Below, in pieces: positions 3,143 through 26,833 of a stretch of 26,833 bases of DNA; position 1 is the stretch's first letter; every line of letters starts with the position of its first letter. A model generated the notes under the pieces. It was not told the DNA's origin and made no database searches. It saw nothing but the letters and a program-made list of their open reading frames with translations. The DNA is from a virus. Position numbers and translations under genes: made by a program. The stretch covers positions 1-26,833 of the IMG/VR virus record IMGVR_UViG_3300037961_000715; one strand, written 5' to 3'.

Positions 3143-3869
3143 CTGTATTGTTCAGCGTCAGGTGATTTGCCTTGACGATTTAAGTCTTGTTCATAAGCTA
3201 AATATGTAAAAGCCGATTCTATTTCAATTTGTGTTGCATCTTCTATTTTTAAAGGGTCGCCTCCTGCTAAATTGTATATTATAGAATACCAACCCCACTT
3301 TTCAGCTATTAAGTTTGTTTTAGCTCCGCCTTTGAATAATTGACCAAACCGTTCGTTAAGGTCTCGCCGATAGACAAAAAAAAATTCGTTGCACCAAGCA
3401 CAACGTCCATCTTTAAGTCATCCCAATAATTAGGCAACACGACTGCGTCGTAATCTTCTATTGTATAAAAGTCGCCCCCTTCTTGTACGATAGGTCTATA
3501 CAATATACTTATTATGCCGTTTAGGTTTTCAAAGTACCCACCATTGCAGTAAGTTTCTAAGTCAGCAAATTCACCAACGGTTAGCTTAGATAAGTTAGGG
3601 TGAAAGCCATAACGCTTGCCTTTGTATTCAATCTTTTTTTGTAGCTCCTGGTTGTTCTGATCGGCGTCAGTTATCTTATGAATTATAGTACCTATTTTAT
3701 TTAGTTCATCAATAGTTAGTTTTGACACTAAGTCTTTGTCTATGTCGCATAAAATAGTAATCGCATCTGACATCCATTGTGTATCAGATTGCTCTAAGTC
3801 TATATTTGTCAATTCACGATATTGCTTGACTGTAACATCAGCCAATGAATCAGGTACGATTAATTCCAT
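3139..3869 (-). CDS. Predicted -1 frameshift product of the tail assembly chaperone (GT-like)
   Basis: If ribosomes slip -1 on the U run at 3384-3378, translation leaves the 186-residue frame after residue 164. It continues for 79 codons (FVYRRDLNERFGQLFKGG... ending DAEQYR) to a TGA at 3141-3139. The product would be about 243 residues. The extension has no ATG of its own, has no stop codon, and ends in an ATGA overlap with the next gene, exactly as an ordinary gene boundary here does. It contains a conserved-looking core, EKWGWYSIIYNLAGGDPLKI. Without a frameshift, about 165 bases between two tightly packed genes would be non-coding. Known parallel: lambda gpGT and many siphophages. The slippage itself is inferred. 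Confidence 0.7.
3309..3869 (-). CDS. Tail assembly chaperone-like protein, zero-frame product (G-like)
   Basis: A 186-residue protein starting MELIVPDSLADV. The ATG at 3869 overlaps the terminase stop (TAATG); an upstream in-frame start at 3920 would lie inside terminase and is disfavoured. Residues 84-128 contain GKRYGFHPNLSKLTVGEF and ISILYRPI, an outline I associate with small phage tail assembly proteins. Near the C-terminus, residues 162-165 (N-F-F-L) are encoded by a run of nine U, and a -1 shift there opens a long second frame (next entry). The pair resembles the gpG/gpGT arrangement of tail chaperones, which bind the tape measure protein during tail assembly. Unlike in lambda, it is not adjacent to the tape measure gene but lies right after terminase. 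Confidence 0.65.
   Translation of the reverse strand: MELIVPDSLADVTVKQYRELTNIDLEQSDTQWMSDAITILCDIDKDLVSKLTIDELNKIGTIIHKITDADQNNQELQKKIEYKGKRYGFHPNLSKLTVGEFADLETYCNGGYFENLNGIISILYRPIVQEGGDFYTIEDYDAVVLPNYWDDLKMDVVLGATNFFLSIGETLTNGLVNYSKAELKQT
3378..3384 (-). promoter_or_regulatory. Slippery heptamer U UUU UUU for -1 frameshifting
   Basis: The mRNA reads GAA followed by nine U and then GUC. In the zero frame this is AAU UUU UUU UUG UCU. The heptamer U UUU UUU fits the X XXY YYZ rule, so both tRNAs can re-pair after a -1 shift. The next -1 codons are UUU GUC UAU. I did not identify a clear downstream pseudoknot by eye. Confidence 0.65.
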
Positions 3870-5023
3870 TATGAGATAAAGTATTTGCCTGAATAAGGTG
3901 TACCGATGCGATTTATACAAACGTATCTAACGGCATCAACAATGTGGTTGTTGTGATCTACTGGTTTAGATAGTTGTACTCCGTCTTTGTTTGTTTCCCA
4001 TCGGTAGTTTCTAAATTCTTTTTGTGCGTTTAACGATTCTTTTAGTATATATAGTTTATGTCGTTTCATTATGTCTATGCCTAGACGAATACTGTCAGGC
4101 CCTTTTTTTGACGGCTTTACGTTGTGTCCTAGCCGATGTAGTTCTTCAATTGATTTAGGTTCTGCACTATCACAAATGATTGGCGTTCTGTTTAGTTCTA
4201 GTTTGTCTAGCTCTAAACTTATATCGCGATTTGTTAAACCTGTCTTGTACAAGTGTTCTTTAATATACAAAGAATAGTCCTCACGCCAAACAGAAACTAA
4301 CGCTGTCGGGTCATTTGTAAAACCCCAATCCATACCGTATGCGACAAGCTTTGCGCGTTCTGGTATTTGGTCTGCAACTTGCCATTGTGGAAATACGGCT
4401 GCTGTGTTAATGCCACGCTCACCTAGTCCGTAAATACGCCAGTAGTTTTCGTCTGTTTCTTTAAAGCGTTCTATTTCGTCAATAACGCTTTGTTCAAGAA
4501 ATGGGTTGTCAAGGTATGTGGTTTGAAAGAAGTCAACGTCATCACGATTTAAAACGTACTCATATATCCAATGATATTGGTCAGATGGGTTATAGTCAAT
4601 TATTGTTTTGTCTGTCGTTCTTAATATAAGTTGTCTCCAATCTTCAAGCGACAGCTCATTAGCTTCGTTTATATACAACATTGTGCGTTTACGACCTCGC
4701 AACTTTTGTGGTTGGTCTGCGCTTATAAACTCAACAAGGTTGCCAAACAATGTGTATGTCGCTTGTGACTTGTTGTGATTTTCTTCGTAGTAGTTTTCAC
4801 CTTCAGTCAGTATGTCAAAAAAGTCTCGCATTACTGACGATCGCAAAGCCGGAAACGTCTTTCTAACTATGGTTATAACAATACCAGCACCTTTGTTTTT
4901 GTAGCACAATTCGATTAACGCTTGACAAATAGAATAGGTCTTGCCCGAACGTGTGCCACCTTGATGTACTTGAATCTTTGCCTTAGACTTTTTAACGTGA
5001 TAGTATGTCGATGGTTGCTTCAC
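3869..5023 (-). CDS. terL: Terminase large subunit
   Basis: The 384-residue ATPase/nuclease motor that packages DNA into proheads. Visible motifs: Walker A GGTRSGKT (residues 22-29), Walker B LYINEA (116-121, catalytic Glu120), and RNase H-like nuclease residues Asp232 (GMDWGFTNDP), Asp285 (ICDSAEP) and the C-terminal NHIVDAVRYV (His360, Asp363). This is the PBSX XtmB/Terminase_3 type and the length is normal for it. The start is GTG, overlapping the small-terminase stop as GTGA; the frame fits the family N-terminus just ahead of Walker A. Its stop overlaps the tail chaperone start. Confidence 0.95.
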   Translation of the reverse strand: MKQPSTYYHVKKSKAKIQVHQGGTRSGKTYSICQALIELCYKNKGAGIVITIVRKTFPALRSSVMRDFFDILTEGENYYEENHNKSQATYTLFGNLVEFISADQPQKLRGRKRTMLYINEANELSLEDWRQLILRTTDKTIIDYNPSDQYHWIYEYVLNRDDVDFFQTTYLDNPFLEQSVIDEIERFKETDENYWRIYGLGERGINTAAVFPQWQVADQIPERAKLVAYGMDWGFTNDPTALVSVWREDYSLYIKEHLYKTGLTNRDISLELDKLELNRTPIICDSAEPKSIEELHRLGHNVKPSKKGPDSIRLGIDIMKRHKLYILKESLNAQKEFRNYRWETNKDGVQLSKPVDHNNHIVDAVRYVCINRIGTPYSGKYFIS

Positions 5024-5343
5024 TCGTCGTCAAACCACTTAAAAGGTTTTGGTTCGTTAACTTCTATCTGTTGCTTCTCTATATACCCCCTGTCTTTAGC
5101 TTGTGTTTTTAAAAAAAAGATAGTTGCAGTTGTATTGCCTTCACCAATCTGTTTATGGAGTTGGCTTTCTGCAAAGTCTAAAGCAATGTCTTTTATTTCT
5201 TTGACTGACTTAGCATATTCTTCGTCCTCTTCTAACCAACGATAATGTGTGCGCCGTGATATGTTGCAAGCTTTAGATGCTGTCGTTACTACGCCAAGTG
5301 ATCGTTCAAGTGCCTCAAGAAAGTCTTTTTTATTATGTGACAT
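5020..5343 (-). CDS. terS: Terminase small subunit
   Basis: A 107-residue protein with an N-terminal helix-turn-helix (residues about 17-36, VVTTASKACNISRRTHYRWL) of the kind that recognises packaging DNA. A long helical oligomerisation segment (IKDIALDFAESQLHKQI) follows, then TATIFFLKTQAKDRGY, which is typical of small terminases of PBSX/phBC6A51-like phages. A short acidic C-terminal tail (FKWFDDE) may contact the large subunit. The gene overlaps terL by four bases (GTGA) and follows the ParB-like gene by five bases. Confidence 0.85.
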   Translation of the reverse strand: MSHNKKDFLEALERSLGVVTTASKACNISRRTHYRWLEEDEEYAKSVKEIKDIALDFAESQLHKQIGEGNTTATIFFLKTQAKDRGYIEKQQIEVNEPKPFKWFDDE

Positions 5344-5348
5344 TTGTG

Positions 5349-5873
5349 TTATTTAAATTGCAATCTCAATGCGTCTAAGACAATACCACCAATATATGTG
5401 TCAGCATTTTTTAGTGCGTTTATAAGTTCGTTTGCCGTGTCGTAATCGTCATCGTTAAAATTGATCTTAATACTACGTTGTTTTTGTTCTTCTTTTGGCT
5501 TTTCTTCTTGCCATAAATCTAGACCCCAATCTTCTAAGTCCGTACCTTCCCACTCGTTTGCAAGTAGATCGTAATCCCAATCGCCATAGTTTAAGTTGTC
5601 TTTTATCATAAATTCGTCTCGTTGCCCTTGTGTCCAATCGGTAACGTCAATAGCTGTTACTTCACGAAATCCTAAATCCTTCATTGCTAGTAATCGCATA
5701 TTGCCACCAACAACAATACCATCAGCAACGACAATAGGTCGCACTTCAAGCATTTCGGGAAAGTTCTCAATCGATGATTTCAGCTTCTTGAATTTCGTCT
5801 TGTTTAGAATCCTTGGGTTGTTCGGGTCTACTTGAATCTGACTTATCGGTATTTTCTTGCTTTGTATATTCAT
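5349..5873 (-). CDS. ParB/Srx-like N-terminal domain protein
   Basis: A 174-residue protein. Residues 6-80 carry the ParB N-terminal outline: KKIPISQIQVDPNNPR, a helix, RPIVVADGIVVGGNMRLLAM (the box around the conserved Gly-Arg), then LGFREVTAIDV. After it, QRDEFMIKDNLNYGDWDYDLLANEW and a WGLDLW segment are common in phage ParB-like proteins next to terminases or methyltransferases. This fold binds nucleotides or acts as a nuclease in different relatives; which applies here cannot be read from the sequence. The start must lie near 5873 to include the domain, so the first 107 bases overlap the preceding gene in another frame. Confidence 0.75.
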   Translation of the reverse strand: MNIQSKKIPISQIQVDPNNPRILNKTKFKKLKSSIENFPEMLEVRPIVVADGIVVGGNMRLLAMKDLGFREVTAIDVTDWTQGQRDEFMIKDNLNYGDWDYDLLANEWEGTDLEDWGLDLWQEEKPKEEQKQRSIKINFNDDDYDTANELINALKNADTYIGGIVLDALRLQFK

Positions 5874-6054
5874 CTACTGATTTAATTACAGACCTTAGCA
5901 ACTCTAAGAAGTGTTTGTTAGCAACTGCTAAGTCCAATATAATATTTAACGAATCGTTGTCCTTGTGGTTTATGTTTATTACATCTCGCTTTCGTGTAAA
6001 AACAAGATAGTCGTCAGATTCGTTGATGTGACGTTTAGCTTTTCGTGCGCTCAT
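5767..6054 (-). CDS. Hypothetical protein with acidic tail (95 aa)
   Basis: Not recognised. The N-terminal half has basic clusters (SARKAKRH, TRKRD) and a short hydrophobic helix (SLNIILDLAVANKHFLELL, residues 35-53). The last 30 residues are highly charged and probably disordered (KQENTDKSDSSRPEQPKDSK). Start and upstream stop overlap as TAATG, supporting the start. The C-terminal 35 codons overlap the first 35 codons of the ParB-like gene in another frame, so the low-complexity tail may be a by-product of constraint from that gene. Confidence 0.55.
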   Translation of the reverse strand: MSARKAKRHINESDDYLVFTRKRDVININHKDNDSLNIILDLAVANKHFLELLRSVIKSVDEYTKQENTDKSDSSRPEQPKDSKQDEIQEAEIID

Positions 6055-6398
6055 TATGTATTTTTAAATTGTAGCCAAAGCGTTTGCATTTGGTCGTCGG
6101 TTTGTAGTAGTTCGTTAAATGTGCGACGGTGATAAATGACGGACGTGTGATCCATCTTTAATAGCTTTCCAATTTGTGGAAATGTCCAACGGTTGTCGTA
6201 AAGATAAGTACATACAACCTTGCGCATATCAGTCAAATATCTGTGTCGCTTCGCGCTTTTTAGATCGTGCCAAGAATAGCCCATTAGTTTAACTCGTTTC
6301 TTTGTTAAATCTAACGCTTGACTTTTAGTAATTTCTTCTTGTGCCTTACCGTCTTTGTCGTATAGATAGCCCACGTTTAGATAAATATTATTCGTCAT
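6054..6398 (-). CDS. DnaA domain IV-like DNA-binding protein
   Basis: A 114-residue protein from the ATG at 6398; an upstream TTG at 6416 is possible but unlikely. Residues 53-104 resemble the C-terminal DNA-binding domain of the replication initiator DnaA: an Arg-rich helix (RYLTDMRKVVCTYLYDNR), then WTFPQIGKLLKMDHTSVIYH. The MDHTSVIYH segment (82-90) corresponds to the DnaA signature DHTTVLHA, which binds the DnaA box. No AAA+ domain is present. The N-terminal 50 residues are not recognised. It could recruit or compete with host DnaA, or mark the phage origin; this is inference. It overlaps its upstream neighbour by 11 bases. Confidence 0.7.
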   Translation of the reverse strand: MTNNIYLNVGYLYDKDGKAQEEITKSQALDLTKKRVKLMGYSWHDLKSAKRHRYLTDMRKVVCTYLYDNRWTFPQIGKLLKMDHTSVIYHRRTFNELLQTDDQMQTLWLQFKNT

Positions 6399-6762
6399 TT
6401 GTACATTGCGCTTCAAATACTTTTAAAAGTTCAATATACATATTCTTGTTACAAGAAGTACACTTTGTCTTTTTTTGATTTTTCCCAAAGATGTCGTTAT
6501 ACATCTGATAAAAAAAGTCAGAGTCTTTGCCTTTCAAGTTTTGGTGTCCTCGATATGCAGGTTGCAACACATCTTTAAAAAAGTTGTATTGTTCCTCTGT
6601 CATTTCTTTTATTTGACGATAGGGAAACATTTTATTGAGACGATCGCGTCGTTTGTCGCAACCACAGTCGTCGCCAAAAAACTTCTTAACGACTTTTTCT
6701 ACTCCTGTTGCTTCAGTTATTTTTTGTATTGTATCTCCTAAGCCCTTGCTTTTTGATTTCAT
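6388..6762 (-). CDS. Conserved cysteine-containing phage protein, possible zinc binder
   Basis: A 124-residue protein from the ATG at 6762, whose upstream context is A-rich; an in-frame ATG at 6783 would add seven residues. I recall proteins of this outline in flavobacterial phages: an N-terminal KSKGLGDTIQKITEATG segment, then DDCGCDKRRDRLNKMFPY (Cys33, Cys35), a central helix, and KCTSCNKNMYIELLKVFE (Cys101, Cys104). Two cysteine pairs could bind one zinc. No function is known to me. It starts about 50 bases inside the sigma-like gene and is co-transcribed with it, so a regulatory or replication-linked role is possible. Confidence 0.6.
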   Translation of the reverse strand: MKSKSKGLGDTIQKITEATGVEKVVKKFFGDDCGCDKRRDRLNKMFPYRQIKEMTEEQYNFFKDVLQPAYRGHQNLKGKDSDFFYQMYNDIFGKNQKKTKCTSCNKNMYIELLKVFEAQCTNDE

Positions 6763-7267
6763 TTTGTATATAATTTCTGACATCTCGAATAGCGCGATAC
6801 AACGTGTTTCGGCTGATGCCTGTTTCTTTTGCCATTGAGTTTAGTGAGTGTCGATCTCCGTAGTAAATAGAAAAGCAATTTTTTTCAAACCAGTCAACAT
6901 CTTGCAACTTATCTTCTATAAAATTAAGTAAAACTTCATTCCATTTTTTTTGATCAACGTCATTCAAATTATGTAAGTGGTTTAGATGTTCGGTCGCTTG
7001 TTTGTGACGTTCTGTTGGTTTTCTATATTTGTAATGGTATCGGCTTGTAGAACTTCGATAGTTGTTTATACATAAGCGAATTATATAGAAACGCATTTGA
7101 TTTTTTTCAACTATCTTTTGCATCTTTGCGCGATTCGCTTCAAGCACCATAACAATAACTTCGTGTGCTAAATCTTCGTAATCTGGGTGTCGTCCTTGCG
7201 TAATGACTTTAGCGATTTCTATTATCGCACCATAGTTTTCCCTTATATACTTTTGAACCACACCCAA
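6713..7267 (-). CDS. Sigma-70-like RNA polymerase sigma factor
   Basis: About 184 residues. The N-terminal part (HPDYEDLAHEVIVMVLE, then FYIIRLCINNYRSSTSRYH) matches the region 2 outline of small sigma factors. The C-terminal part (SLNSMAKETGISRNTLYRAIRDVRNYI, residues about 145-171) is a region 4-like helix-turn-helix. There is no in-frame ATG before region 2, so the start must be non-ATG: TTG 7267 or GTG 7261, just after the NinG-like stop in the same frame. Such a protein could redirect host RNA polymerase to late promoters. The intermediate segment is short and polar. Calling it a true sigma factor rather than a related HTH regulator is moderately sure. Confidence 0.65.
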   Translation of the reverse strand: MGVVQKYIRENYGAIIEIAKVITQGRHPDYEDLAHEVIVMVLEANRAKMQKIVEKNQMRFYIIRLCINNYRSSTSRYHYKYRKPTERHKQATEHLNHLHNLNDVDQKKWNEVLLNFIEDKLQDVDWFEKNCFSIYYGDRHSLNSMAKETGISRNTLYRAIRDVRNYIQNEIKKQGLRRYNTKNN

Positions 7268-9342: not shown

Positions 9343-9982
9343 CGATTGTTGAATTAGGGTGTACGATAAACTTCCATCGTCCTTTGTCGTCAACGTCAGA
9401 TTCAGGTAAGTTTAGTTTATCTTTAAATTCTTGCCACTTTTTTATTTGTTCCTTTGTCAATGGTTCTTGCTTTGCTTTTTGTGCAGCTTCTTGTTTATAT
9501 ACTACTTTTTGTCTGTTGTAGTTGTTTTCGATCATATCACCTCGTTCGCCTTCGTGTTGCTTAAATATTTCTACAAGTTCTGGTAGCTTTAGTCTTTCGT
9601 ACAATTTGCCATAATATCCAGCTTTTAATCTTTTAGTGATCACTTTCCATTCTTCTAATTTCATTGTTGGAAATTGCTCAATTAAATATGTTACCGCATC
9701 TATATAATCGCCTTCGTGTCGAAAACTTTTATTCATTTCTAAATAGTCAAGAGCATCTTTAAGCAATGCCGTCAAACCCACAATAGTCATTTTAGGTTCG
9801 TGCTTGTATGCTGACCTTACATTAGTACCTAAGTGCCAAGCGTCACTAAGTGACAAATTAGAGTGATTCGATATGGTTAAAAAACTTTTCTTGATCGAAA
9901 GTTTTATTTTTTGTGCTTGTTCTGTTATTGTAAAATCCTTTCCATCCTTGCGCAATGGCGTGTTCGATAAGTTCGATTGCAT
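9335..9982 (-). CDS. Hypothetical protein next to replication initiator (215 aa)
   Basis: Not assigned to a family. It is helical and charged. The middle part WKVITKRLKAGYYGKLYERL (about residues 116-135) and ERGDMIENNYNRQK resemble proteins often found beside replication initiators in Bacteroidota phages. The first 42 codons overlap the end of the replication gene by 125 bases in another frame; no later ATG exists before residue 63, so this start or a non-ATG start is used. The C-terminus (LPESDVDDKGRWKFIVHPN) is polar. A role in replication, for example as a helicase-loader partner, is a guess from position. Confidence 0.5.
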   Translation of the reverse strand: MQSNLSNTPLRKDGKDFTITEQAQKIKLSIKKSFLTISNHSNLSLSDAWHLGTNVRSAYKHEPKMTIVGLTALLKDALDYLEMNKSFRHEGDYIDAVTYLIEQFPTMKLEEWKVITKRLKAGYYGKLYERLKLPELVEIFKQHEGERGDMIENNYNRQKVVYKQEAAQKAKQEPLTKEQIKKWQEFKDKLNLPESDVDDKGRWKFIVHPNSTIDD

Positions 9983-10544
9983 CTTGTTCGTTGTTGTTAG
10001 ATAGGTTGATTAATTTTTTTAAGGCAGCTTGTTCTGATACTGCTGACTTGTAGCCAAATTTATGCTCTTCTTTCTTATACTTTTTCCAGAGTGTCCAACT
10101 TTCTTTAAACAAATTTGAATCAAATGGCAACACTATGTGTGTTGTATTTTGTTTAGTCTCTTGGTAGTTATCTGGTATAGGTGAGTCATTTTTGACATAT
10201 CCATTTGTCATATTTGACATATGCAAACTACTTAAATTGTCAATTGCATTTGTCAAAGTAAACCACTTAGTTCGATCGTATCTTTTGTCATTAAAATTTC
10301 CAGATACTATTGCGCCTTTTTCTTCAAGCTTTGTAAGCAAACGACCTATCTTTCGTGCCGTCCAAAACGGAAACAACTTAGCAAAAGCTGACTGACTGTT
10401 GTATGTCCAGTATCTACCTTCGTGAAAGTTTCTGTCGTTCGCTTCGTTCTTAGCTACCCAATAGCGGATGTGGTGAAGCATAATAGCTTCATCCACTCCG
10501 TATTGTTTAGCGTCCTGACTTGCAAAAGTAAAATAATCAAGCAT
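9858..10544 (-). CDS. Replication initiator-like winged-helix protein
   Basis: A 228-residue protein. Residues 1-100 (AIMLHHIRYWVAKNEANDRN, YWTYNSQSAFAKLFPFW, RKIGRLLTKLEEKGAIVSG, DRTKWFTLT) match the winged-helix N-terminal domain of phage replication proteins related to DnaD/RepO-type initiators. A polar linker follows, then a helical region (FKESWTLWKKYKKEEHKFGY, residues about 150-170) that in relatives contacts the helicase or loader. It overlaps the HTH gene by eight bases. With no polymerase or helicase in the window, it probably recruits the host replisome. Confidence 0.75.
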   Translation of the reverse strand: MLDYFTFASQDAKQYGVDEAIMLHHIRYWVAKNEANDRNFHEGRYWTYNSQSAFAKLFPFWTARKIGRLLTKLEEKGAIVSGNFNDKRYDRTKWFTLTNAIDNLSSLHMSNMTNGYVKNDSPIPDNYQETKQNTTHIVLPFDSNLFKESWTLWKKYKKEEHKFGYKSAVSEQAALKKLINLSNNNEQDAIELIEHAIAQGWKGFYNNRTSTKNKTFDQEKFFNHIESL

Positions 10545-12260: not shown

Positions 12261-12263
12261 ATC

Positions 12264-12296
12264 GCAATCTACAACATACTTTCTATAAAAGCAAAA
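12264..12296 (-). promoter_or_regulatory. Weak candidate early promoter (minus strand)
   Basis: TTTTG at 12296-12292, a 20-base spacer, then TAGATTGC at 12271-12264, which matches TAnnTTTG except in the last two bases. Spacing suits Bacteroidota promoters. Initiation a few bases downstream would favour the second ATG (12233) of the next gene. The window shows no better minus-strand match before the early genes. Confidence 0.3.
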
Positions 12297-12304
12297 GATA
12301 ATCT

Positions 12305-12338
12305 TTGTTTTTATTTAACTTTTATTTGTTTATATTTG
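12305..12338 (+). promoter_or_regulatory. Bacteroidota-type promoter for the plus-strand peptide
   Basis: TATATTTG at 12331-12338 is an exact TAnnTTTG -7 element. TTG at 12305-12307 (within TTTG) is a -33 element, 23 bases upstream, at the long end of the accepted spacing. Transcription would start near 12345, about ten bases before the ATG at 12355. Confidence 0.5.
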
Positions 12339-12354
12339 CAAAAACCTAAAAACT

Positions 12355-12450
12355 ATGATCACTTCAGACCCATCTTCATCAATTAACAAGTTTATTACTT
12401 GTGTAATTTTAGTGTTAGCTATACTATTTAGCATACACTTATTTAGATAA
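12355..12450 (+). CDS. Plus-strand 31-residue single membrane-segment peptide
   Basis: MITSDPSSSINKFITCVILV is followed by LAILFSIHLFR. Residues about 12-29 form one hydrophobic helix, with a short polar N-terminus and a terminal Arg. This is the only plus-strand ORF in the window supported by its own signals: an exact TAnnTTTG element 17 bases upstream of the ATG, an A-rich start context (CCTAAAAACTATG) and hairpins downstream. All other genes run the opposite way. Small membrane peptides of this size in phages can be holin regulators, superinfection-exclusion factors or toxins; none can be chosen from sequence. It may also be a chance ORF on a non-coding RNA. Confidence 0.45.
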   Translation: MITSDPSSSINKFITCVILVLAILFSIHLFR

Positions 12451-12452
12451 AA

Positions 12453-12483
12453 AAAACACCGCTAATTTTGTTAGCGATGTTTT
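12453..12483 (-). terminator. Hairpin terminator, best in the minus direction
   Basis: Arms 12453-12465 and 12471-12483 (core CGCTAA/TTAGCG, outer AAAACA/TGTTTT) enclose a five-base loop. The only irregular pair, 12459/12477, is A.C-type on plus-strand RNA but a G.U wobble on minus-strand RNA, where it is followed by further U. It therefore best ends the lysis/late transcript coming from 12580 and above. Its edge lies next to the stop codon of the plus-strand peptide. Confidence 0.6.
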
Positions 12484-12548
12484 ATGACTTATATTGTCGT
12501 TGATATAAATCTAAATTGATTTAGGCATACATTTGTTTATGTTGTTTG

Positions 12549-12579
12549 AAAGCCCTCTGGTCTAATCAGGGGGCTTTTT
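12549..12579 (+). terminator. Strong rho-independent terminator, plus direction
   Basis: AAAGCCCTCTG, loop GTCTAAT, CAGGGGGCTTT: eleven pairs with one U.G wobble on plus-strand RNA, then a run of U (12575-12579). On minus-strand RNA the same pair would be an A.C mismatch and the U-run is short. It ends plus-strand transcription directly before the minus-strand metallophosphoesterase stop codon (12582-12580). Confidence 0.75.
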
Positions 12580-23750: not shown

Positions 23751-26700
23751 TTATTCTTGTACTAAAGGAAGCCCGTCTTCTGATAATATGTCTCCTAAAT
23801 TTTCCAACAACAACAAGTTGCGTTCTTGACGCATAGTTGCAGTCGAGGTACTCATAAAAGTTATTGAGCAATCTAAATTCCAAGCGCAAATTGTATCTGT
23901 TGGGCCTGTTACGTTGATCACAAAGCCCATAAGTGTATTGTCAAAACTACCAGTACCCTTTGTTGCTAAACATTCAACGACTCTACTTCCTGCGTCTGTG
24001 TCCTCTTGTGCAAAGTCCGTCTGTTCCGATCCAGTTATGCTTATTGTTCCTTGTAAATTCTTAGCCATAAAAGTATAAACTTTAAATGACGTTGAATTTG
24101 GTGACCCAACGCTAGATGTAACAAAGTAGTCGTCAGTCTGTATAGACAAAGCTCTGACAATAATTCGTGCTGACATATTTACGTCAAGCGCAAATGCTTT
24201 ACCCAAATTTGGGTTTCCAGTAGGCGTTGCAGTAGTTGTATTGTTGCTGTACGTTGTAGCATATAAAACAACATTTTTTTGCGTAGTTTGTATTCCTGTT
24301 AAAACGTTTTGCCCTTGTATTGATATTTCTCCTGGTATTGGGTTATGGTTTGCAGATTGATTTTTTACTGCGTGTACACCTCCTAAATTTGAGACCAACG
24401 ATTTACCGACAGCGATCGGCGAACCTGGAACTTGTCCATCGTTTAATCCGTTACCACCACCAGTATTGCCTGTTGCCCACATACAAGCGTTTAAAGTTGT
24501 GTTAAAAGTGTAGTGATTTTCGTTGCAACATTCTTCTGTACCGTTAGACGTCACACCTGTTTCAGGGTTTATAAATAGAACAAATCCATTTTGTTGAAGG
24601 CCAGCAACAACAAGCTCACATTCTGCGTCTGGTTGTGGTATGCTTTGACTTTTAAATGCGTCAAGTTTTTTTAACAGAGTAACTTTACAAGGTACGTTTG
24701 CAAATGGTTGATAGTTTGAAATAGTTAAAACTCTGTAAGCTGTATTCTTAATAATTATTTCATCGTTAAACTTAAAATTAAAGATGTCTGTTGGACTAAG
24801 CATAATTTCGCACTCAACAAGACGAGCTTCCTGGCCGTAGATGCTCATTAAGAACTGTTGGTGATACCTTGCAAAATAACCTTCGTCTGAAGGTGTAGCA
24901 CCATAGTTTACAAGTCCAAAGGCGTGCGATTGATTAAATGACCACATCAAGTAAGGTGAGTCGCTTGCAATTTCGTTGCCGTTATTGTAAAAGTTTACAC
25001 ACAAAGGAAATGTTGTAACAGACGTTTCCTCAATATAATATGACGCACCGTTTGCTAGTGTTTTAACTCCGTTGTGATAAAACAATTTAGGCTTAGCAGA
25101 CGATATAGGCCCGTTCGTGTCTTGTCCATAACCCTTGTGTATTAGAACGTCTCCTATTTCACTTATGTCAGTACCGTTAGCTTTTGGTATGCGCCCAACT
25201 TGAAACGGTGCAAATATAGGGTCGTTTTTTAAAGTACCAGATGTAAAATCTTGACCTACTTCTTGCTTATACCTTCCAATTACATATTGATTTTGATCTT
25301 GGAAATTCTTATTAAAAATAGTATCGTCTTCAGCGTCTTCAAAGTGTAAAAATTTGTTGCGTATTGAGTCTGTTGGCTTTATTGTAAATTCTTTAGATGT
25401 GTCAAGCTTGTCTGTCCAGTCTTTACGATCACCAGCGTCAATATAATCTTGCCAAGGTTGTATGTTTAATTGCTTTACGTCGTTGTTATCTGACGTTATA
25501 CATAAATTAAACCTTTGAGCTAAATCTTTTACAAATGCGCTTTGTTGTACGTCAGGCATATTGTTTGGCATTTGCGCAATGCCATTGTTTAGATCGGAAG
25601 CGTAAACTGTAAAAAAGGTTCCTTCGGGTATTACTCTTATATAATCACCAGATTGATTTGCTGAATAAATAATAATTTCAGCTTGAAAATATACACGGTC
25701 ACCAGCATCACAAGGCAAAAACCATTCAAAAGTTGGCAAAAATCCTGTACTTACACCTGAAACATCTGTATAACCACTCCAAGTATATTGATAAAAACTA
25801 GACGCTTGACCAGGAGATAATTTTTGAACTCGCATAGTTATCCTACCGTTTTCAGTCAAGTTTGTTTCATAACCTAGATTTGCTGTGCCATAATAAATAC
25901 CAGTATCAGGAACATCAAAATAACCAGAATCAATACTCGCAAAGTATTTCCAATTATTTGCTGGGTCAAATAAAGCTGGTGGGTTACTGTTAACACCCAC
26001 ACCAGTTGTGTCGTCTAAATTTAAATCAACAATCTCATATGCTCCTGCGCTTTCTTGTGGGTTTGGTGCTGGCCCCCAATTAACTTGCGCAACTGACGTA
26101 GCTGGTGTATGCGATACACATAAACCTGCAACCCCTCTTGTAGCGACTGATTCTCTGTCAGTAGCCAAAGTCATATACAACTTAGTCCAGGCGTCAGACG
26201 TCAAAAACGAATTTGTTTTTAGTGTGTAGCCAGCTTGTGTAAATATTTTTTCAAATAAATGCGAAACACTAATTGCTGGCTTAAACATATAAGGTTGCAA
26301 GAAGTTTTCTTGTGCAATGCCTTGTGCTTCTAAGCTTCCGTCATCGTAGTATAAAAAACTACTTTCTTCTTGGCTTAGACCATAATCAGCTAAAGGGAAT
26401 ACAATAGTTCCGTCGCCAACATTGCCTGTTGTGACATCGTTAGTTAACGTCCAAGAATTAACAATATCACTAGGTGTCAACGGAACGTCGTAGTCTACGT
26501 CCATAACATCTTCGCTAATAAATAAATCGATCAGCTTCTTGTCTTTTATCTCTTGAAAGATGCTGGCCTCTTCTCCAAATACTGCAACTTCGTATTCTTT
26601 GCTTTTAGTGTGTACGTTTTTGAGTTGTAAAGACCCTGTTATAATTGGTATGCCGTCAACTCTTATTTCGCAATAGCTTTTTTTGTGTATGTTAAAAACA

Positions 26701-26833
26701 TTGCCTGCACCACTTTGTGTTAAATTAACGTCATAATATAAGCCAAAAAATCTTGAATTGTAATTTGTAAACGGCAACCTAAAGGTTTGACTAAATGGAC
26801 TATAACGACCCATAATGTCGTTCCCCTTGCTAA
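23751..26833 (-). CDS. Large tail-tip / baseplate-hub-like protein (5' end beyond window edge)
   Basis: The frame is open to the window end and continues in the left copy to the ATG at 583; the full length is about 1064 residues. The first Met seen here (26813) is residue 45, not the start. Order of parts: N-terminal beta domain (MGRYSPFSQTFRLPFTN), SYCEIRVDGIPIITGSLQLK, a jelly-roll-like middle (ITMRVQKLSPGQASSFYQYT), and a hub-like region with FVKDLAQRFNLCITSDNNDV, LNIQPWQDYIDAGDRKDWTD and ECEIMLSPTDIFNFKFNDEI. The C-terminal 300 residues (from about AGLQQNGFVLFINPETG) are Gly/Thr/Asn-rich and may bind the receptor. Related in position to Tal-type tail proteins but located upstream of the tape measure gene. 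Confidence 0.75.
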   Translation of the reverse strand, partial: SKGNDIMGRYSPFSQTFRLPFTNYNSRFFGLYYDVNLTQSGAGNVFNIHKKSYCEIRVDGIPIITGSLQLKNVHTKSKEYEVAVFGEEASIFQEIKDKKLIDLFISEDVMDVDYDVPLTPSDIVNSWTLTNDVTTGNVGDGTIVFPLADYGLSQEESSFLYYDDGSLEAQGIAQENFLQPYMFKPAISVSHLFEKIFTQAGYTLKTNSFLTSDAWTKLYMTLATDRESVATRGVAGLCVSHTPATSVAQVNWGPAPNPQESAGAYEIVDLNLDDTTGVGVNSNPPALFDPANNWKYFASIDSGYFDVPDTGIYYGTANLGYETNLTENGRITMRVQKLSPGQASSFYQYTWSGYTDVSGVSTGFLPTFEWFLPCDAGDRVYFQAEIIIYSANQSGDYIRVIPEGTFFTVYASDLNNGIAQMPNNMPDVQQSAFVKDLAQRFNLCITSDNNDVKQLNIQPWQDYIDAGDRKDWTDKLDTSKEFTIKPTDSIRNKFLHFEDAEDDTIFNKNFQDQNQYVIGRYKQEVGQDFTSGTLKNDPIFAPFQVGRIPKANGTDISEIGDVLIHKGYGQDTNGPISSAKPKLFYHNGVKTLANGASYYIEETSVTTFPLCVNFYNNGNEIASDSPYLMWSFNQSHAFGLVNYGATPSDEGYFARYHQQFLMSIYGQEARLVECEIMLSPTDIFNFKFNDEIIIKNTAYRVLTISNYQPFANVPCKVTLLKKLDAFKSQSIPQPDAECELVVAGLQQNGFVLFINPETGVTSNGTEECCNENHYTFNTTLNACMWATGNTGGGNGLNDGQVPGSPIAVGKSLVSNLGGVHAVKNQSANHNPIPGEISIQGQNVLTGIQTTQKNVVLYATTYSNNTTTATPTGNPNLGKAFALDVNMSARIIVRALSIQTDDYFVTSSVGSPNSTSFKVYTFMAKNLQGTISITGSEQTDFAQEDTDAGSRVVECLATKGTGSFDNTLMGFVINVTGPTDTICAWNLDCSITFMSTSTATMRQERNLLLLENLGDILSEDGLPLVQE
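26369..26833. repeat. Right copy of the diverged end repeat
   Basis: Pairs with 1-471. Differences by eye include g/a at 26373 versus 5, and the missing six bases near 26506. Most changes are synonymous in the tail gene. It supports genome closure with sequence variation in the sampled population. Confidence 0.9.

Follow-up and report, generated by a model that had tools for sequence, protein, structure and literature searches.

What would a phage do with the DNA-binding domain of the replication initiator DnaA when the AAA+ motor is missing? The question is raised by a gene in the window, by which we mean the whole stretch of virus DNA analysed here (26,833 nucleotides; IMG/VR record IMGVR_UViG_3300037961_000715, positions 1-26,833). 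The gene encodes a protein of 114 amino acids, here called DnaA4 (6054..6398, minus strand), which the initial annotation had read as a stand-alone DnaA domain IV-like protein that might recruit the host replisome to the phage or titrate host DnaA sites. Here, we describe the homology, predicted fold, gene context and distribution of DnaA4, and we favour, with a probability of roughly 0.45, a role as an accessory DNA-binding regulator, which we consider more likely than a role in starting phage replication. An alignment of the window's two ends (1-471 and 26369-26833) spans 471 positions with 95.8% identity and 2 gaps, which makes the record look like a circle of some 26.4 kb whose map was closed across two strains.

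The DnaA4 reading frame begins with ATG and runs 6398..6054 (-); an upstream TTG start in the mechanical list of reading frames gives 120 amino acids. Homology to DnaA domain IV covers about 88 of the 114 residues. The Pfam family Bac_DnaA_C (PF08299) matches the protein with an E-value of 6.7e-7 and 29.7 bits, narrowly missing the curated cut-off of 31.5, and the NCBIfam DnaA model matches over model positions 360-433 of 437 (7e-7, 28.7 bits), a score far beneath that model's whole-protein cut-off of 343.9. At E ≤ 0.1, Bac_DnaA_C is found in all 8 members of the close alignment and in 18 of the 19 members of the wider DnaA4 family (window included in both; 18 distinct rows in the latter). When the PDB was searched with a profile made from the 19 family members only (A3), the top five matches were all DnaA chains (E 7.3e-6 to 3.2e-3) and the remaining matches had E ≥ 0.23, while the single DnaA4 sequence recovered DnaA at ranks five and six only (E 0.3). 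The DnaA AAA+ domain (Bac_DnaA, PF00308) gave 0 matches at E ≤ 1 in the whole record, and 114 amino acids leave no room for DnaA domains I-II. Compared with PHROGs and PADLOC, DnaA4 matched no family and no system entry, respectively, at E ≤ 0.1. Twelve other contigs found by pattern scans encode proteins 76-97% identical to the window DnaA4, and dN/dS between the window gene and five of its relatives (L004, L005, L006, L007 and L014; L008 and L010 left out as rows out of register) is about 0.07-0.19, so the gene is under purifying selection.

An AlphaFold model of DnaA4 made from a 27-sequence alignment (A2) is helical and has a pLDDT of 89.1 and a pTM of 0.79. The initial annotation had named structure prediction against DnaA domain IV as a check, and here the prediction agrees with it: superposed on box-bound E. 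coli domain IV (1j1v), the model gives Z 13.4 and an rmsd of 1.7 over 88 residues, and on 3pvp it gives Z 13.3. Among 161 chains preselected by Foldseek, DnaA entries occupied ranks 1-6 and the next row had Z 6.2; in Foldseek itself the top 8 rows were all DnaA, the best with an E-value of 8.9e-3 and none at or below 0.001. When only 8 close sequences had been used, the resulting model was poor, with a pLDDT of 57 and no DnaA among its 3 structure rows. Eight of the A2 sequences are other viral DnaA IV proteins picked by the DnaA signature pattern, and a model based on them may lean to the DnaA fold; the family-only profile search of the PDB provides the independent check. As judged from profile matches and the predicted fold, DnaA4 is confirmed as an isolated DnaA domain IV that carries a short N-terminal tail and lacks the AAA+ motor of domain III, and the recognition segment KMDHTSVIYH reported in the initial annotation is found at residues 81-90.

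Two elements of DnaA4 correspond to the DNA-contacting parts of domain IV. The alignment places a basic loop and the start of helix 3 at residues 50-59 (6222..6251, minus strand), including R51 and R59; model, alignment and superposition place a helix-turn-helix at residues 73-100 (6099..6182, minus strand), with the recognition helix at 84-100 and the triplet D83-H84-T85. In the window protein, R51 pairs with E. coli R399, R59 with the residue that we take to be R407, D83-H84-T85 with D433-H434-T435, and R92 with R442. All six positions are therefore kept, and the loss of contact residues that the initial annotation had named as grounds for doubt is not seen in the alignments. R51 and R59 are invariant in 27 of 27 aligned sequences and in 19 of 19 family members. 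At the other positions the family is less uniform: H434 is kept in 18 of 19 members and R442 in 15, D433 is D in 11 (window included), N in 5 and H in 3, and T435 is kept in 6 members but replaced by S in 8 and by A in 5. E. coli R399 is described as a minor groove contact (PMC9638019). DnaA4 proteins thus appear, from their sequences, to keep the domain IV fold and much of its grip on DNA, while part of the base-reading surface varies within the phage family, unlike in DnaA itself.

All genes called in the window lie on the minus strand. Around DnaA4 they follow the order NinG, ECF-sigma-like gene (6713..7267), phrog_32048-like gene (6388..6783), DnaA4, g5767 (5767..6054), ParB-like gene (5349..5873), terminase small subunit-like gene TerS (5020..5343) and terminase large subunit gene TerL (3869..5023), with PHROG matches identifying the phrog_32048-like, ParB-like, TerS and TerL proteins. 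This order holds from NinG to TerL in 12 close contigs, as far as each extends, with a methyltransferase-like insert before TerS in four of them (L004 and L008-L010). TerL is the fourth gene after DnaA4 in one run of abutting genes: the end of the phrog_32048-like gene overlaps its start, the ATG of g5767 shares a base with its stop codon, and there is no promoter-sized gap upstream of TerS. The phrog_32048-like protein and g5767 (95 amino acids) have no assigned function. Two genes upstream of DnaA4, the ECF-sigma-like protein matches TIGR02937 over nearly its whole length (3.4e-9, beneath the curated cut-off) and phrog_1740, RNA polymerase sigma factor (2e-5). Nonlabens phage P12024L has the same order of a sigma-70 region 2 gene, a phrog_32048 homologue and TerL as the window, with the phrog_32048 homologue one gene before the terminase large subunit, and the DnaA4 family profile found no match in that phage. 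The ParB-like protein has 174 amino acids in the window and is extended to 369-492 in L156, L164, L170, L172 and L173, where a methyltransferase-type DPPY motif can be read by eye.

Two places were considered as an operator for DnaA4 and rejected. The spacer between TerS and TerL is absent in the window and varied in relatives, consisting mostly of coding-looking short stretches; this junction is a cassette slot with differing inserts in L004, L005, L007, L156, L163 and L175. The main promoter region (12261-12579 and its equivalents) was too divergent to reveal a conserved operator, with a mean identity of 47% across 7 aligned sequences (6 with DnaA4 and one without), and no block tied to the gene was visible. 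In the window, 12261-12579 holds a terminator-like hairpin, a second hairpin seen by eye and then an AT-rich gap before the next gene, and is likely a transcription boundary. No target site for DnaA4 was found in these searches.

Sister phages differ in whether they have the gene at all. Among contigs with both flanking genes visible, DnaA4 is present in 23 of 28 (window included) and absent in 5 (L162-L166), all of which keep the ECF-sigma-like gene and have g5767 directly after the phrog_32048 gene; these counts are not independent, as the five form two near-identical sets (L162-L164 and L165-L166) and several gene-bearing contigs are near-duplicates. When two contigs with the gene (L008 and L010) are compared with three without it (L162-L164), the HTH gene is 97-99% identical, the next gene 86-92%, TerS 94-100%, the two genes before TerS 84-86% and the initiator 77-79%. 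For L008 alone, TerS is 96-100% and TerL 95-99% identical to those of L162-L164, and for L010 the values are 94-98% and 84-88%. When the DNA of L020 is compared with that of L164, the DnaA4 gene falls in a gap. The family profile found no copy elsewhere in two gene-less records searched whole (26.6 and 30.0 kb), and in a control the same search found a diverged DnaA4 copy in the L168 record.

Alleles are also exchanged. Phages L007 and L156 have 100% identical initiators, 97% identical sigma and phrog_32048 proteins and a 96% identical next gene, whereas their DnaA4 proteins are only 57% identical, and DNA identity falls from about 95% to 57-69% within the DnaA4 gene. The two phages differ in further cassettes as well, namely inserts before NinG, the C-terminus of ParB and the TerS-TerL spacer. 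Because DnaA4 is absent from 5 of 28 contigs and swapped beside an identical initiator, it is an exchangeable accessory cassette, one among several, that is not tied to the initiator. The DnaA4 family is a narrow, divergent branch with this pattern of loss and swap.

From these observations we infer that DnaA4 would bind double-stranded DNA through its DnaA-type basic loop and helix-turn-helix, domain IV alone being described as sufficient for sequence-specific duplex binding (PMC5835720); having no ATPase, it could not melt an origin by itself. Its target would be a phage-specific site, or a host promoter, and it may act within the run of abutting genes that links the ECF-sigma-like gene with the terminase genes, modulating transcription, probably together with host RNA polymerase or with the sigma-like protein of the phage. 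Differences in the recognition helix from one allele to another (D, N or H at D433; T, S or A at T435) are expected of a regulator with its own sites. Gene overlap on both sides also favours this role, as does the position upstream of TerL in 17 of 18 other viral records (see below). Against it, the searches for a target site were negative and TerS has no promoter-sized gap before it; a place upstream of the terminase would also suit the end of a replication or accessory region, and accessory genes directed at the host show allele swapping just as typically.

By analogy, the closest functional precedent would be GafY of Caulobacter crescentus, a DnaA domain IV homologue (PMC9632790), and DnaA4 with its partner may work as GafY does with GafZ. 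According to the text cited, GafY was first named HdaB since its overexpression affected replication; it was later found at the promoters of a gene transfer agent (GTA) and, with its sigma-like helix-turn-helix partner GafZ, to be necessary and sufficient for GTA expression (PMC9632790, PMC11150451), and its authors propose there that it has no role in regulating oriC-based replication (PMC9632790). In Rhodobacter capsulatus, GafA is described as having a DnaA-like domain near its N-terminus and binding upstream of TerS, and in Hyphomicrobiales the gafA-like gene in most cases has a small DnaA-like gene in front of it (PMC9638019). As far as these sources describe them, GafY (stand-alone) and GafA (N-terminal) share with DnaA4 a DnaA IV-like DNA-binding domain and a tie to phage-type structural genes; they have a sigma-like partner or domain, for which DnaA4 has a candidate two genes upstream. 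Unlike DnaA4, GafY (compared here by description) and GafA are alphaproteobacterial, host-encoded and required for GTA production; DnaA4 is missing from 5 of 28 contigs in which the sigma-like gene stays, and so is not needed as GafY is for the GTA. The same absence argues against a strict need of DnaA4 for late or structural gene expression. The candidate partner of DnaA4 is the ECF-like sigma protein, which is likened to GafZ, the partner of GafY, by role; DUF6456, the name of GafA homologues, does not appear in the list of 22 Pfam families for the ECF-sigma-like protein at E ≤ 1. Neither the A3 profile nor PF08299 matched roseophage RDJL Phi 1, a reported GafA carrier; a PF08299 scan of the kind used there also missed 10 of 13 DnaA4-family records (two with a truncated gene).

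The next reading, which we hold to be rather unlikely, is that DnaA4 occupies host DnaA boxes at oriC or at DnaA-controlled promoters and blocks or redistributes DnaA, so that host initiation would stop and nucleotides go to the phage. The window allele keeps all six contact positions, genes directed at the host are typically missing from some sisters and exchanged next to further swapped cassettes, as DnaA4 is, and there is a precedent in YfdR, which is encoded by a cryptic prophage of E. coli and is described as binding DnaA, and whose gene cluster inhibits initiation when overexpressed (PMC4776307). YfdR is phage-derived, as DnaA4 is, and acts on DnaA-dependent initiation when overproduced, but in that description it binds the DnaA protein, whereas DnaA4 resembles DnaA's DNA-binding domain. 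Against this reading, 8 of 19 members have N or H in place of D433 and one lacks H434, so reading of host boxes would be at best a property of some alleles and not family-wide. The phages' own box content is no help to it either. Host-type boxes are rare in the 15 sequences with DnaA4 (8 observed, 19.6 expected) and similarly rare in 14 without it (4 observed, 9.4 expected; 5 close and 9 more distant contigs, most contigs being partial), which rules out a link between box rarity and the gene, and L020 and L168 carry DnaA4 and yet have 3 boxes each, above expectation.

Replication of the phage itself, in which DnaA4 would bind phage-borne DnaA-like boxes and bring in the host replisome, is improbable. 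The initial annotation had called this plausible in a phage with no polymerase, helicase or primase. None was convincing among the 30 window proteins compared with PHROGs (about 8 further called genes lay outside the scan), the one weak helicase-family match (6e-4) falling in a methyltransferase, and this part of the argument stands, as does the domain homology; what had been missed is the phage's own lambda O- or DnaD-like replication initiator (9858..10544, minus strand), which by PHROG matches is assigned to phrog_11233, replication initiation (1.5e-32), DnaD-like helicase loader (2.2e-17) and O-like (2.5e-14). Inside this gene (10185..10290, minus strand), a motif scan found five matches to TGWCAAA, counting both strands, in a stretch of 80 bases, with one overlapping pair among them; no simulated genome out of 200 had more than four matches (four in 3 of 200), with the motif having been chosen after it was seen. 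The core TGWCA occurs there in 3-5 copies in 11 of 15 relatives and in 0-2 copies in 4, and the repeats are a candidate lambda-like origin. The clustered DnaA-box-like 9-mers that the initial annotation proposed to look for did not turn up: TTWTNCACA occurs in the window once (5.6 expected), TTATCCACA with up to one mismatch occurs 3 times (7.5 expected), and scans for boxes and near-boxes found no cluster in the window. Sisters that do without DnaA4, and the allele swapped between two phages with identical initiators (L007 and L156), speak further against replisome recruitment; the initiators of L008/L010 and L162-L164 are just 77-79% identical, and some co-change may have occurred there. Help for the ParB-like and terminase proteins in packaging, for instance by reading a cos/pac region, is equally improbable: the gene's place before TerL in the same run and weak Pfam terminase gpP-like matches in 3 of 19 family members (best E 0.042) favour it, but TerS and TerL are near-identical in L008 with DnaA4 and L162-L164 without it, so the presence or absence of DnaA4 does not call for different packaging proteins.

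DnaA4 is not alone. At least 120 viral loci fit the DnaA signature pattern; among the 120 obtained, 102 are closed reading frames, of which 91 are at most 300 amino acids from stop to stop, and none of these 91 has a Walker A motif. Judged from these sequences, DnaA IV proteins of the stand-alone type are found repeatedly in viral contigs, with the caveat that IMG/VR contigs can hold host DNA. Among the 80 of these 120 loci that were listed, 35 with a contig above 20 kb and a short closed frame were picked by hand. PF08299 was located in 35 of 35, above the Pfam cut-off in every record, unlike in the window, and TerL (phrog_2) in 18 (for G015, G040 and G041, with two matches, the stronger was used). 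For 17 of the 18, TerL follows downstream of the DnaA IV gene on the same strand at a distance of 2.4-12.3 kb, and DnaA4 in the window likewise precedes the terminase; in the remaining record the DnaA IV gene is on the opposite strand and the TerL match is weak. Fifteen of 18 lie within 8 kb of TerL, where 3.7 would be expected from random placement, a control that takes no account of the functional clustering of phage genes.

Annotated phages gave few relatives. A tblastn search returned 3 weak records (E 0.1-0.7). One, MT837889.1 (L031), is labelled a bacteriophage in GenBank and was rejected, having dnaA-dnaN-recF-gyrB-like frames that look like part of a bacterial chromosome; both remaining records carry a DnaA IV gene of the stand-alone type that scores above the Pfam cut-off. 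In Rhizobium phage RHph_N28_2 (L030 and L032), an HNH gene comes after a DnaA IV-like gene, and next, across the record start, stands a NusG-like antiterminator gene, another link of DnaA IV-like genes to transcription control. EVB88_078 of this phage, PHROG 30669 and PHROG 27829 (labelled 'DnaA-like replication initiation protein') are, like DnaA4, motor-less DnaA IV proteins in phages. Window bases 1-25000 had no near-identical match in annotated phages; in bacterial and archaeal genomes 43 stretches fit patterns of the DnaA4 profile and 0 were confirmed, and 2 contigs from a DNA pattern search were set aside as chance matches in unrelated frames. Among the matches listed in a search of the open-access literature, no paper dealt with this phage family or with phage stand-alone DnaA IV proteins as a class.

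The domain, its stand-alone phage form and a regulatory use of it are already known. Stand-alone DnaA IV genes are easily labelled replication initiators, as in two annotated phage records examined, and the label can mislead: it apparently did so for HdaB/GafY, and here the gene is absent from sisters with the same type of initiator, is swapped beside an identical initiator, has a changing recognition helix and stands before the terminase genes. A wider reading, doubtful as a whole, would make stand-alone DnaA IV proteins in general phage regulators, a widespread class encoded before the terminase genes, recruited from the replication initiator and reading phage-specific sites with sigma-like partners, with GafY and GafA of gene transfer agents as a domesticated branch and DnaA4, in this phage family (probably of Bacteroidota), as an exchangeable specificity cassette. 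If DnaA4 is indeed a regulator, a recurrent class of unnamed phage genes would gain a testable function.
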